Assembly: GCA_030550515.1 (NCBI GenBank)
Contig: JAUQPE010000011.1
Location: forward strand, 1 to 64,000
DNA: 64,000 nucleotides
Source of the DNA: Thermotogota bacterium
Lineage (GTDB): Bacteria > Thermotogota > Thermotogae > Thermotogales > Thermotogaceae
Direction of reading: 5' to 3'
Shown here piece after piece: positions 4,835 through 10,225 of the stretch. How positions within the stretch are numbered: position 1 is the first letter of the stretch; each line of letters starts with the position of its first letter. The translations under genes and the position numbers were made by a program. The notes beneath the pieces were generated by a model. That model made no database searches, was not told where the DNA came from, and was given only the letters and a program-made list of their open reading frames with translations.

Positions 4835-5938
<1,104 letters not shown>

Positions 5939-5941
5939 TTC

Positions 5942-5969
5942 GAGGGGGACGTCCCCCTCACTTTTTTTT
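5942..5969 (+). terminator. strong terminator between convergent genes
   Basis: Perfect palindrome GAGGGGGACGTCCCCCTC (5942-5959) followed by AC and eight T residues (5962-5969). The T run is on the plus strand, so it terminates the ABC ATPase transcript. The minus-strand gene ends inside it: its stop is at 5958-5960 and its last lysine codons are the same T run. Confidence 0.88.
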
Positions 5970-7955
5970 CACGATGAATTCCACCACGTCCCCGTCCTGA
6001 AGTTCTTCCGTGAACCTGGCCTTTTTACCGTTCCTCAATATCTCGTAGTCCTTCAAACCGTCCACTTCGACGTCCTTCAGCAGGTCCAAGATCATCGGTT
6101 TGAATTCCTGAAGCTCAAAGCGGTTCTCGCCCGTCTCCTTCAGTTTCATCAGAGGGAACTTTCTCTGGACGCCGTTGAACGAGACGGTGATGGTCGGGAT
6201 GTCCAGGGCTTCCTCCACGCTCTTTCTCTTGACCTCGACGGCTACGATCTCCTCCCCAAGTTTGACTCGGTCTTCGTCGAAAAGCTTCGCCTCTCCCCTG
6301 AAGAACTCGTATTCCACCAACCTCACCGTCTTCGTTTCGCCGTTCACCACCACCTTTCCCGTTCCACTTTTCAACTTTTCCTTCAGTTCCTTCACGCTCA
6401 TCTCTTCTCGAAAGCTCAAAACGTCCCCATCTTCCACGAGTTCTTCGGGAAACGCTTCCTTTTCGTTTTTGGTGATGGTTGGGTATACCTCTTCCTTCTC
6501 GCCGTCCGGGAAGGTCACGCGGATGGGTACCACCAAATCTTTGACCTTCAGCTGTTCCTGATGGTCTTGAACGATCACCTCTATCCGGTCACCGTGTTTC
6601 ACGTGCGCGTGAAAGTCCGCAGGTTCTCCGTTCACCAAGACGTCCACCCTACCCCGCGCCCGAGTTGACACAACGGGTCTTCCGTTCACCTCGACAACCA
6701 AGACGTCCTTTTTGAAAAGGTTGGAGAACTTGTAACCCGCCTGGATCAACGCTTGCATCACGGTGTACCTACCGTTCGTTCCCATCATTCTCACGGGAAT
6801 TCCGTTCACGTGAAGTTGGGAGAACACCGAACCACTGCTCTGCAGCGCCGAGTAGGCGATACCAACAGGTGTGACGAACTCGCTTCCCTTCACCCTACCC
6901 GTCGGGTCTTCCACAACGCCGGTGCTTTCGACGGTCTTCAGCGACACCCTCTCCGCTGGCAAACCCAGTTTTTCCGCGAGTTTCTCTGAAAAACCCGGTA
7001 CCTTTGCCCCTCCACCGACTATCAAAACAGCCGATGGGGCCGAGCCGTTGAGCTCCAGGATCTGCCTTGCGATCTCTCCAGTCACGAGGTCCAAGGTCGA
7101 CTCCACAGCTGACCTCACCTGATCGGCGTCCAGTTCGACGAGCTTGTCCAGGATGTTTTTCACCGTGAGTCTCCCAGTTTCGAACACGGTTCTCTTCACC
7201 CGCTCGGCCGTGTTGAAGTCCAACAGGAAACTCCTTCCGATGGCTTCGGTGATTTCGTCGCCAGCGAGAGGGATCATGCTGTAGGCGACCACGGCGCCAT
7301 CGCGCGAGATCGCTATGTCGCTCGTTCCCGCTCCAACGTCGACGAGCGCCACGTTGAGGTACCTGAGATCCTCTGGCACGGCCACGTTCATCGCTGCGAT
7401 GGGCTCCAGCGTCATGAACACGGGGGTGAGCCCTACAAGTTCCAGAACCTTGAACAAAGCTTCCACCACTTGAACGGGCAGGAAGGCGGAGACGACCCTC
7501 ACGTAGGCCCTTCCTCCCCTATGTCCTTCCAGCCTTTTCACCCAAAAACCGTCCAGATTGTACTCCACGACAGAGTAGCCGACGCAAAAATAGTCCTCTT
7601 CCATCTTCTTCTGCGCTTCGTTTACGGCTTCCATTTCCAACCTTGCCACGTCTTCCTTGGTGATCCTGACAAGTTTGGAGAGGTCCCTTTCCGCCTCGGC
7701 GAAGATCGTTTTCAAGTACCTGCCGGCGAGGGCAACGGCGACCTCTCTGAGGTTGGTTTCGTTCCTCTCTTCCAAGGTTTTCTTCAACGTCGCCACCGAT
7801 CTTGCCACTTCTTCCACGTCGTGAACCTGACCGTCGAACATCGCCCTGGTCTCGTGTTCTACGGTTTCAACGTCCACAACTCTCAGAAGAGACCCCTCTC
7901 TCGCCGCGATGATCCCCGCGATCTTCCTCGTGCCGACGTCGAGGGCGAAGATCAT
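5958..7955 (-). CDS. FtsA/PilM-like actin-fold ATPase with C-terminal beta-grasp-like repeats
   Basis: Protein of 665 aa. The first 370 residues have the FtsA/PilM actin fold: phosphate-1 loop ALDVGTRKIAG (4-14), the SHS2-type insertion around 80-165, phosphate-2 loop LVDVGAGTSDIAI (204-216) and adenosine loop LIVGGGAKVPG (311-321). FtsA is normally about 420 aa. Here some 290 residues follow, with at least four similar modules ending in KHGDRIEVI (453-461), EDGDVLSF (508-515), KLGEEIVAV (565-573) and QDGDVVEF (653-660), several preceded by a VNG or RNG strand. This resembles ThiS/TGS-type beta-grasp folds. The ATG at 7955 follows GGAGGTGAA and overlaps the mutS2 stop. No FtsZ-binding tail or ftsZ neighbour is seen, so a role in division, pilus assembly or another membrane process is open. 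Confidence 0.8.
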   Translation of the reverse strand: MIFALDVGTRKIAGIIAAREGSLLRVVDVETVEHETRAMFDGQVHDVEEVARSVATLKKTLEERNETNLREVAVALAGRYLKTIFAEAERDLSKLVRITKEDVARLEMEAVNEAQKKMEEDYFCVGYSVVEYNLDGFWVKRLEGHRGGRAYVRVVSAFLPVQVVEALFKVLELVGLTPVFMTLEPIAAMNVAVPEDLRYLNVALVDVGAGTSDIAISRDGAVVAYSMIPLAGDEITEAIGRSFLLDFNTAERVKRTVFETGRLTVKNILDKLVELDADQVRSAVESTLDLVTGEIARQILELNGSAPSAVLIVGGGAKVPGFSEKLAEKLGLPAERVSLKTVESTGVVEDPTGRVKGSEFVTPVGIAYSALQSSGSVFSQLHVNGIPVRMMGTNGRYTVMQALIQAGYKFSNLFKKDVLVVEVNGRPVVSTRARGRVDVLVNGEPADFHAHVKHGDRIEVIVQDHQEQLKVKDLVVPIRVTFPDGEKEEVYPTITKNEKEAFPEELVEDGDVLSFREEMSVKELKEKLKSGTGKVVVNGETKTVRLVEYEFFRGEAKLFDEDRVKLGEEIVAVEVKRKSVEEALDIPTITVSFNGVQRKFPLMKLKETGENRFELQEFKPMILDLLKDVEVDGLKDYEILRNGKKARFTEELQDGDVVEFIVKKK

Positions 7956-10225
7956 GTCTTCACCTCCACCACCGTCACACCGGTCCCCCCTTCCGCTGGC
8001 ATTCCGAACCTGAAGTTCACAACTCGGGGGTCGCTCCTGAGGATTTCCCACACACCCGCCGCGAGCCTTCCCGTCCCCTTTCCGTGTATGATGTAACCCT
8101 TGCTCAAGCCGTTCATCACCAAATCGTCTAAGAACTTCTTGATCAAGGGCTCCGCCTCTTCGACCGTGAGACCCCTGATGTCGATCTCCGTCCTGAAAGA
8201 CGACACTATCTTCTGTTGCTCAACTTGCACTTCCTCTTGCTTCTCCACTTTTCTGAGGTCTCCCACTGGCACCTTCACCCTCAGAAAGCCAAAGTCCACG
8301 AGCGCCACGTTCTCCCTTATCTCCACCACCTTTCCAACGGACGTGCCACCCTCTATCCTCACCGGGTCTCCAACCCTTATCTCTTCGTCTGCGACTTTTT
8401 CTATCTTCACCTCTCTTATCTCCCTGCTCTCTTTCTCCAGCACTTTGGCGGTTTCCTTCATCTCTTCGATGCGAGCGCTCTTCATGGCGTGCAACGCATG
8501 ATCCAAGTCCTTCTTCACCTTCTTTATGTACTCGCTGAGCTCTTTGAGTTCCCTGTCAAACTCTTCGATCTTCATCTTTTTGAGTTTTTTGTAGTCTTCC
8601 TCGTACCTTTGCTTTAGAACGACGTACTCTTCCCTTTCCCTTTGAAGTTTCCTTCGCTCCTCCTCGAGAAGGGATATGCGTTCGTGGAGCGACCTTATCA
8701 GGTCTTCGAGCGCCATCTCTTCCTGGGAGAGTTTCAGACGGGCCTTTTCGATTATTTTCTTGTCCAGACCAAGCTTTTCCGCTATGTGGAAGGCGTGGGA
8801 ACCACCCGGCACTCCCACCAACAACCTGAAGGTGGGCGACAACGTCTCCGGGTCGAACTCCATGGAGGCGTTCAACAGTAGGGGATGGTTCATCGCCATC
8901 ACCTTGACGGGTGTTAGGTGCGTGGTGACGAAGATGGTGGAACCTTTTTCGATGAGTTCTTCGATGATGGCGATCGCCAAAGCGGCCCCTTCGACGGGAT
9001 CCGTCCCAGACCCCAACTCGTCGAGGATGACGAGCGAATCGTCGTCGGCCGATTCAACGATCTCCACGATCCTCCTCATGTGAGACGAAAAGGTGCTGAG
9101 GTTTTGCTCTATGCTCTGTTCCTCACCGACATCCACCAATATCTTCGAAAAGATCCTCAGTTCCGTGCCCTCGTCGGCCGGCACAGGGAAGCCGCTCATC
9201 ATCATGGCTGTGAAGAGTCCCACGGTCTTCACCGTCACGGTCTTTCCACCCATGTTCGGACCCGTTATGATCATGCCCTTCTTGGTCGACGAGAGTTCCA
9301 GGCTGACGGGTACGACTCTGTCCTTTGGGATGAGGGGGTGTCTGGCGTTCACAAGCTTTATCTTGGAAGAGGGTTTCACGACGATCGCCGAACACTCTTT
9401 TGCGAACCTCGCTCGGGCGTACAGGGAATCGAAGTGCGAGATGGCCTCCAGGGAATTTTCCAGGCATTTCAGATTCTTGAGCAAGATGTTCGTGAGTTCT
9501 CTGAGGATCCTGTTCACTTCTATCCTTTCTTCTTCTTCGAGTAACCTCATCCTGTTGTTCAACTCCACGAACTCTTCCGGTTCCATGAACACGGTGGCGC
9601 CGGAGGAGGACAAGTGGTGAACGATGCCACGGACGGATCCCTTCAGGGAGGCCTTCACGGGGAACAGGTACCTTCCATCCCTCAAGACGTACATCTGTTC
9701 CTGAAGTACCGAGGCGTTTTTCCTCACAAAATCATCGGCTTTTCTCTTCAACTCTTGGGAGAGCTCTCTCTTGTTCTTCCTTATTTCTCTGAGCTTCGGG
9801 CTCGCCCCGTCCGAGATCTCCCCCTTCTCGTCCACGCACCTTTTCACCTCTTCGACGAACTCCTCCAAGACGCACAGGCGCGCAACCAACGCTTTCAACT
9901 CCTCAAACTCCCTCTTCTCCACGTCCTTTTTGAGTTCTCGACATCCTTCGAAGAAGTCCGCCACCCTACGCAACTCCGTGGGTTCCAAGACTTTCCCATC
10001 TCTCACCTTTTCGAACTCCGCCGTGACGTCGTTTAAACCCTTGATCGGAGGTTCACCGTACTTGAGGAGGTATCGAACGGTGTCGTCGAGGAGGGCAAGC
10101 TCTCTCCAAGGATTGGGAGTGGGTTTGAGCGAATCGAGATGCCTTCTCCCAAGTGGAGAAAAAGCGTACTTTTTCACGAGCTCGACCACCTGTGGGAAGT
10201 CGAGGAGCTCCAGATAACTCTTCAA
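7952..10225 (-). CDS. mutS2: MutS2 ATPase/endonuclease
   Basis: MutS2, 757 aa, a MutS-family clamp without the mismatch-recognition domain; members suppress recombination or rescue collided ribosomes, depending on species. The ATPase shows Walker A GPNMGGKTVTVKT, the VDVGEEQSI segment, Walker B LVILDELGSGTDP and the VTTHL switch. A long charged coiled coil follows (about 510-620). The C-terminal Smr domain has IDIRGLTVEEA and the HGKGTG motif with a following L/R segment, typical of the nuclease domain. Start is TTG at 10225 with GAGGTGAT about 5 bases upstream. It overlaps the FtsA-like gene (ATGA), so the two are coupled. A -10 element lies at 10267-10272. Confidence 0.95.
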   Translation of the reverse strand: MKSYLELLDFPQVVELVKKYAFSPLGRRHLDSLKPTPNPWRELALLDDTVRYLLKYGEPPIKGLNDVTAEFEKVRDGKVLEPTELRRVADFFEGCRELKKDVEKREFEELKALVARLCVLEEFVEEVKRCVDEKGEISDGASPKLREIRKNKRELSQELKRKADDFVRKNASVLQEQMYVLRDGRYLFPVKASLKGSVRGIVHHLSSSGATVFMEPEEFVELNNRMRLLEEEERIEVNRILRELTNILLKNLKCLENSLEAISHFDSLYARARFAKECSAIVVKPSSKIKLVNARHPLIPKDRVVPVSLELSSTKKGMIITGPNMGGKTVTVKTVGLFTAMMMSGFPVPADEGTELRIFSKILVDVGEEQSIEQNLSTFSSHMRRIVEIVESADDDSLVILDELGSGTDPVEGAALAIAIIEELIEKGSTIFVTTHLTPVKVMAMNHPLLLNASMEFDPETLSPTFRLLVGVPGGSHAFHIAEKLGLDKKIIEKARLKLSQEEMALEDLIRSLHERISLLEEERRKLQREREEYVVLKQRYEEDYKKLKKMKIEEFDRELKELSEYIKKVKKDLDHALHAMKSARIEEMKETAKVLEKESREIREVKIEKVADEEIRVGDPVRIEGGTSVGKVVEIRENVALVDFGFLRVKVPVGDLRKVEKQEEVQVEQQKIVSSFRTEIDIRGLTVEEAEPLIKKFLDDLVMNGLSKGYIIHGKGTGRLAAGVWEILRSDPRVVNFRFGMPAEGGTGVTVVEVKT

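Follow-up and report, generated by a model that had tools for sequence, protein, structure and literature searches.

An FtsA-like protein with a tail of tandem ubiquitin-like modules, widespread in Thermotogota and Firmicutes

A gene adjoining mutS2 in a 64,000-nucleotide stretch of a Thermotogota genome (GCA_030550515.1, contig JAUQPE010000011.1; hereafter the window) encodes a protein in which an actin-fold ATPase of the FtsA type is followed by a chain of ubiquitin-like modules. This architecture is close to certain, the folds of both halves having been established by structure prediction together with homology. The sequence-only reading had regarded it as a non-standard module; it is not unique to the source genome: the FtsA-like protein represents a family that is old and widespread in bacteria, above all in Thermotogota and Firmicutes. 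The family has no curated NCBIfam name, as the best models score below their cut-offs. Actin-fold ATPases and ubiquitin-like folds have both been studied intensively, yet a description of their fusion was not found, and searches of the open literature, in which queries with "ThiS" were weak as they match the word "this", yielded no paper on the family. A broad survey of beta-grasp proteins published in 2007 does not mention FtsA and leaves the high beta-grasp complexity of T. maritima unexplained; an FtsA-like protein of the type described here could contribute to that complexity.

The actin-fold half and the modular tail

The three nucleotide loops that had been recognized from the sequence are present at the positions listed in Table 1. 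Residues D6, G8, T9 and R10, D206, G208, A209, G210, T211 and D213, and G314 and G315 are invariant among 72 relatives, and the conserved loops suggest that the protein is an active ATPase. The N-terminal half, which includes an inserted 1C subdomain as in FtsA and PilM, matches the Pfam families FtsA with 52.3 bits and PilM_2 with 45.2 bits, both above the Pfam cut-offs. AlphaFold2 modeled the entire protein with a mean pLDDT of 91.5 from a 72-sequence alignment. In Foldseek comparisons of the N-terminal half, FtsA crystal structures (TM 0.80-0.85; TMt 0.85 for both 7q6f and 1e4g) outscored those of PilM, MreB, EutJ and DnaK. The fold, with a 1C/SHS2-type insertion in place of 1B, thus agrees with FtsA structures at TMt values of up to 0.85; the Pfam model SHS2_FTSA itself matches only two of the 72 members.

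Table 1. Positions in the window of the FtsA-like gene, its parts and the adjoining mutS2 gene
Feature	Position	Strand	Basis
FtsA-like ATPase with tandem ubiquitin-like modules	5958..7955	minus	ORF, ATG at 7955, 665 aa + stop
FtsA-type actin-fold ATPase core, residues 1-370	6846..7955	minus	Pfam FtsA, PilM_2; Foldseek FtsA structures
Phosphate-1 loop, residues 4-14, ALDVGTRKIAG	7914..7946	minus	sequence
Phosphate-2 loop, residues 203-216, ALVDVGAGTSDIAI	7308..7349	minus	sequence
Adenosine loop, residues 310-322, VLIVGGGAKVPGF	6990..7028	minus	sequence
Beta-grasp module 1, residues 377-464, extra hairpin	6564..6827	minus	best ThiS match, 398-461
Module 2, residues 467-517, abbreviated	6405..6557	minus	hhalign 97.6-98.3% probability; pLDDT >90
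Module 3, residues 516-578, abbreviated	6222..6410	minus	tail model + hhalign
Module 4, residues 578-664, terminal beta-grasp	5964..6224	minus	MoaD_arch 618-660; weak TGS 642-661
mutS2, directly upstream, same operon	7952..10225	minus	TIGR01069 820.6 bits (cut-off 400); Smr + MSSS domains
ATGA overlap, mutS2 stop / FtsA-like start	7952..7955	minus	4 nt

These comparisons bear on the proposal that the protein is a substrate-remodeling ASKHA ATPase, i.e., a chaperone or reactivase resembling Hsp70 or EutJ whose clients would be bound by the beta-grasp arm. Such a role would fit the observations that EutJ and DDR models give secondary matches and that Foldseek aligned the protein over a long stretch with DnaK, substrate domain included. 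Arguing against it are the far better matches to FtsA-type structures than to EutJ or DnaK and the gene neighborhoods, in which no reactivase or chaperone genes were seen. We consider a chaperone of this kind rather improbable.

The tail was predicted from the sequence to contain four beta-grasp domains, on account of the repeated endings KHGDRIEVI (453-461), EDGDVLSF (508-515), KLGEEIVAV (565-573) and QDGDVVEF (653-660), all of which occur exactly as quoted. When modeled alone (residues 372-665), the tail attained an AlphaFold pLDDT of 93.7, and its top Foldseek match in the PDB was linear tetra-ubiquitin (7yui, E 4.9e-8), with further top matches to other linear ubiquitin chains, the E. coli multi-ubiquitin-domain protein 9cd2 and ISG15. 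The global TM to these polyubiquitin-type structures is only about 0.2 and the identity about 10%. Most likely the TM is low because the modules are oriented differently to one another, so that the ubiquitin-likeness of the tail rests on the local fold and order of the modules and not on overall shape. The modules are homologous: in hhalign all six pairs aligned at 97.6-98.4% probability with scores of 55-67, far above the maximum of 17 reached by column-shuffled controls (20 runs per module pair), which excludes a chance resemblance of the repeats. The Pfam model ThiS (PF02597) matches the protein with 40.3 bits, the cut-off being 22.5. Direct matches of the ThiS/MoaD/TGS type fall in the first and last modules, the last being the most conserved across phyla after the first. 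The prediction of four domains is thus supported by AlphaFold, Foldseek and hhalign, with the qualification that the two inner modules are short, comprising 50-60 residues with a helix ahead of the first hairpin, and are best described as beta-grasp-like.

Members of the family contain two to six detectable modules, mostly four or five. Among the 72 relatives, beta-grasp models matched at E ≤0.01 in 54 cases for ThiS, 50 for Ub-Mut7C and 38 for TGS. Unlike ThiS, MoaD, TGS and Ub-Mut7C proteins, with which they share these profile matches, the modules are arranged in tandem, fused to an ATPase and without a C-terminal GG. A diglycine was found at the C-terminus of none of 89 family tails, which rules out a ubiquitin-type modifier or a sulfur carrier. 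Linear polyubiquitin, ISG15 and the bacterial multi-ubiquitin-domain proteins are the closest structures to the whole tail, which differs from them in sequence, in the geometry between modules and in lacking a conjugation tail. Most of the 89 tails stop within eight residues of the last strand motif, leaving no room for a membrane helix of the FtsA type. Three loci deviate from the usual pattern, through either variation or sequencing error: in L066 (G041, 4913-6259) the gene is seemingly split into frames of 455 and about 250 aa, and in L051 and L067 (G008 and G009), which belong to one genus, the protein has only 561 aa and fewer modules.

Relation to FtsA and PilM, and distribution of the family

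The protein resembles FtsA in its actin fold, 1C insertion and nucleotide loops, but it scores 108.2 bits with the FtsA model TIGR01174, below the cut-off of 175.85, and it has a modular tail of 290 residues in place of an anchor-like C-terminus. The absence of an adjacent ftsZ, noted in the sequence-only reading, holds, and the genome encodes elsewhere a separate canonical FtsA of 420 residues, with an anchor-like C-terminus (...REGLLWRIFKLFKELIE) and ftsZ directly after it. The score and the presence of a true FtsA-FtsZ pair exclude that the protein is FtsA itself. The genome also contains two MreB-like genes. PilM (TIGR01175/PF11104) matches the whole core in sequence and exceeds the Pfam cut-off, but the TIGR01175 score of 78 bits is too low (cut-off 133), PilM structures have no such tail, and the genome has no match to PilN (PF05137). 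PilM is therefore likewise excluded. In the window, two short ORFs within positions 10-793 have N-termini of prepilin-type appearance (FTIVEALSGMVIVFALLS and similar); PilN was not found in the genome.

The family relationship raises the possibility of a cytoskeletal or envelope scaffold, in which a second FtsA- or PilM-like filament would serve cell division, cell shape or the assembly of pili or flagella and would contact its partners through the beta-grasp arm instead of a membrane anchor. Besides the FtsA fold of the core, the location of the gene in flagellar or chemotaxis clusters in two other phyla and the FtsA content of the Firmicutes carriers speak for such a scaffold: FtsA matches over the cut-off were obtained in 17 of 24 carriers, the other seven having none, although one lies just below. 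However, the source genome has a dedicated FtsA-FtsZ pair and lacks PilN, the final beta-grasp strand closes the chain, with no C-terminal amphipathic membrane-targeting helix after it, and the main conserved neighbors are neither division nor pilus genes. A cytoskeletal role is conceivable, though on balance somewhat unlikely. The clusters in question (G148, L163/L198; G138, L196), whose genes were assigned by eye, include flagellar hook-filament genes and a gene for an HDOD protein in one phylum, and FlhF/FlhG-like and Che genes, with what is probably a FapA/DUF342-like gene directly upstream, in the other.

The extension was expected to recur in close relatives, and it does: the gene is found in 79 of 103 Thermotogota genomes, mostly at full length, which excludes a recent gene fusion or an assembly artefact. 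The Thermotogota that lack it are family f9, one genus of family f3 and a few others. A scan of named genomes revealed at least 587 relatives, and the top 80 among them belong to Thermotogota, Clostridia and Bacilli; 54 of 195 sampled Clostridia are carriers, and the gene also occurs in three further small phyla (G120, G138, G148). In a quick, preliminary tree the 62 Firmicutes rows all clustered together and the Thermotogota nearly so, a grouping that fits old vertical inheritance and does not support a recent transfer between the two.

Gene neighborhoods and a possible role in ribosome rescue

The overlap of the start codon with the mutS2 stop codon, seen in the sequence and listed in Table 1, reflects a conserved arrangement. 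In 28 of 32 Thermotogota genera mutS2 lies directly upstream, nearly always overlapping or separated by no more than 30 nt. The proposed linkage to mutS2 thus holds across Thermotogota, to which it is specific; in Firmicutes the same protein is encoded elsewhere. Among 71 Firmicutes loci, seven of which have too little upstream sequence to judge neighbors, neither mutS2 nor Smr nor rqcH was found within the flanks examined. The gene directly upstream in 17 clostridial loci is nth. In Bacilli the neighbors are genes that we take to be ytxJ, aroA and ccpA.

Two further arrangements resemble that with mutS2. In the Thermotogota family f11, rqcH (NFACT_N) is directly upstream of the FtsA-like gene, and a separate phylum has, in both of its genomes, a stand-alone Smr gene (PF01713; E-values of 8e-18 and 2.6e-19) located 1-5 nt upstream. 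The rqcH and Smr links were recognized post hoc in few lineages and are tentative. In B. subtilis, MutS2 (RqcU) uses its SMR and KOW domains to recognize collided ribosomes, and it both splits such ribosomes and feeds RqcH (PMC10897456). All three neighbors belong to, or resemble, factors of ribosome-collision rescue and thus constitute three different pointers to that process. The FtsA-like protein has no sequence relation to MutS2 or RqcH and is not among the factors of ribosome quality control in the literature examined. MutS2 and RqcH are both retained in Thermotogota that lack the FtsA-like gene, i.e., no co-loss was found, and hence the protein is at most an accessory component.

The same gene orders might instead indicate an accessory factor of DNA repair or recombination that acts with MutS2, endonuclease III or helicases. 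The mutS2 neighbor in Thermotogota, nth in the clostridial loci and a Snf2 helicase upstream at one f7 locus would all fit. Nevertheless, MutS2 has no mismatch-recognition domains and its target in B. subtilis is the ribosome (PMC10897456), the adjacency to rqcH offers no repair link, and nth may be an incidental neighbor; a repair function appears distinctly improbable. According to another scenario, the coupling to mutS2 is an inherited gene order devoid of functional meaning, and the protein is unrelated to any of its neighbors. That neighbors vary between phyla and that MutS2 persists after loss of the FtsA-like gene would be expected, but the near-zero or overlapping spacing has been kept in most of the 28 genera, and the links to rqcH and to the Smr gene are separate ones. 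We regard a meaningless gene order as unlikely.

In the model that we tentatively prefer, as one that may well prove incorrect, the protein is a cytosolic, ATP-switched scaffold with a ubiquitin-like docking arm that works with ribosome-rescue partners in at least two phyla, Thermotogota among them. The FtsA/PilM-superfamily ATPase would be cytosolic, having neither a recognizable membrane anchor nor a conjugatable tail. Binding or hydrolysis of ATP in the actin fold would most likely switch its conformation or oligomerization, and the tandem beta-grasp arm would provide a multivalent platform for the docking of proteins. In these phyla the partners would probably be RqcH and either MutS2 or a different protein with an SMR domain, such that the protein would serve as an accessory scaffold in the processing of stalled ribosomes or nascent chains. 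We infer the scaffold role from fold and architecture, and the role in ribosome rescue, which was recognized post hoc, solely from gene order. As a mechanism, a cytosolic scaffold that is switched by ATP and equipped with a multivalent beta-grasp arm is the most economical, and the leading hypothesis of function in Thermotogota is, tentatively, ribosome rescue. It may fail in Firmicutes, and the functional reading is kept tentative because the clostridial neighbor is often nth. A more specific version of the scaffold model envisages a ribosome-rescue factor in which an actin-family ATPase carries a built-in, non-conjugated chain resembling polyubiquitin; through this chain it would bring processing factors to ribosomes that SMR proteins have split or sensed, and would provide a fixed equivalent of the ubiquitin step of ribosome quality control in eukaryotes. 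The odds are clearly against this version. If the link to ribosome rescue is true, an ATPase scaffold would join a bacterial pathway of which the later steps are incompletely understood. Culturable relatives among Bacillus and Clostridium carry the gene, in which these proposals can be tested.

Other genes adjoin the operon in some lineages. An acpS-like (holo-ACP synthase) gene is directly downstream in 12 of 32 Thermotogota loci (among them L046, 3142-3507, and L063, 6173-6553), and in family f9, which lacks the FtsA-like gene, it directly follows mutS2. At the f7 locus (L049, 1867-5046), the Snf2-family helicase gene occupies the upstream position held elsewhere by mutS2, and a 1-phosphofructokinase-like gene lies downstream.
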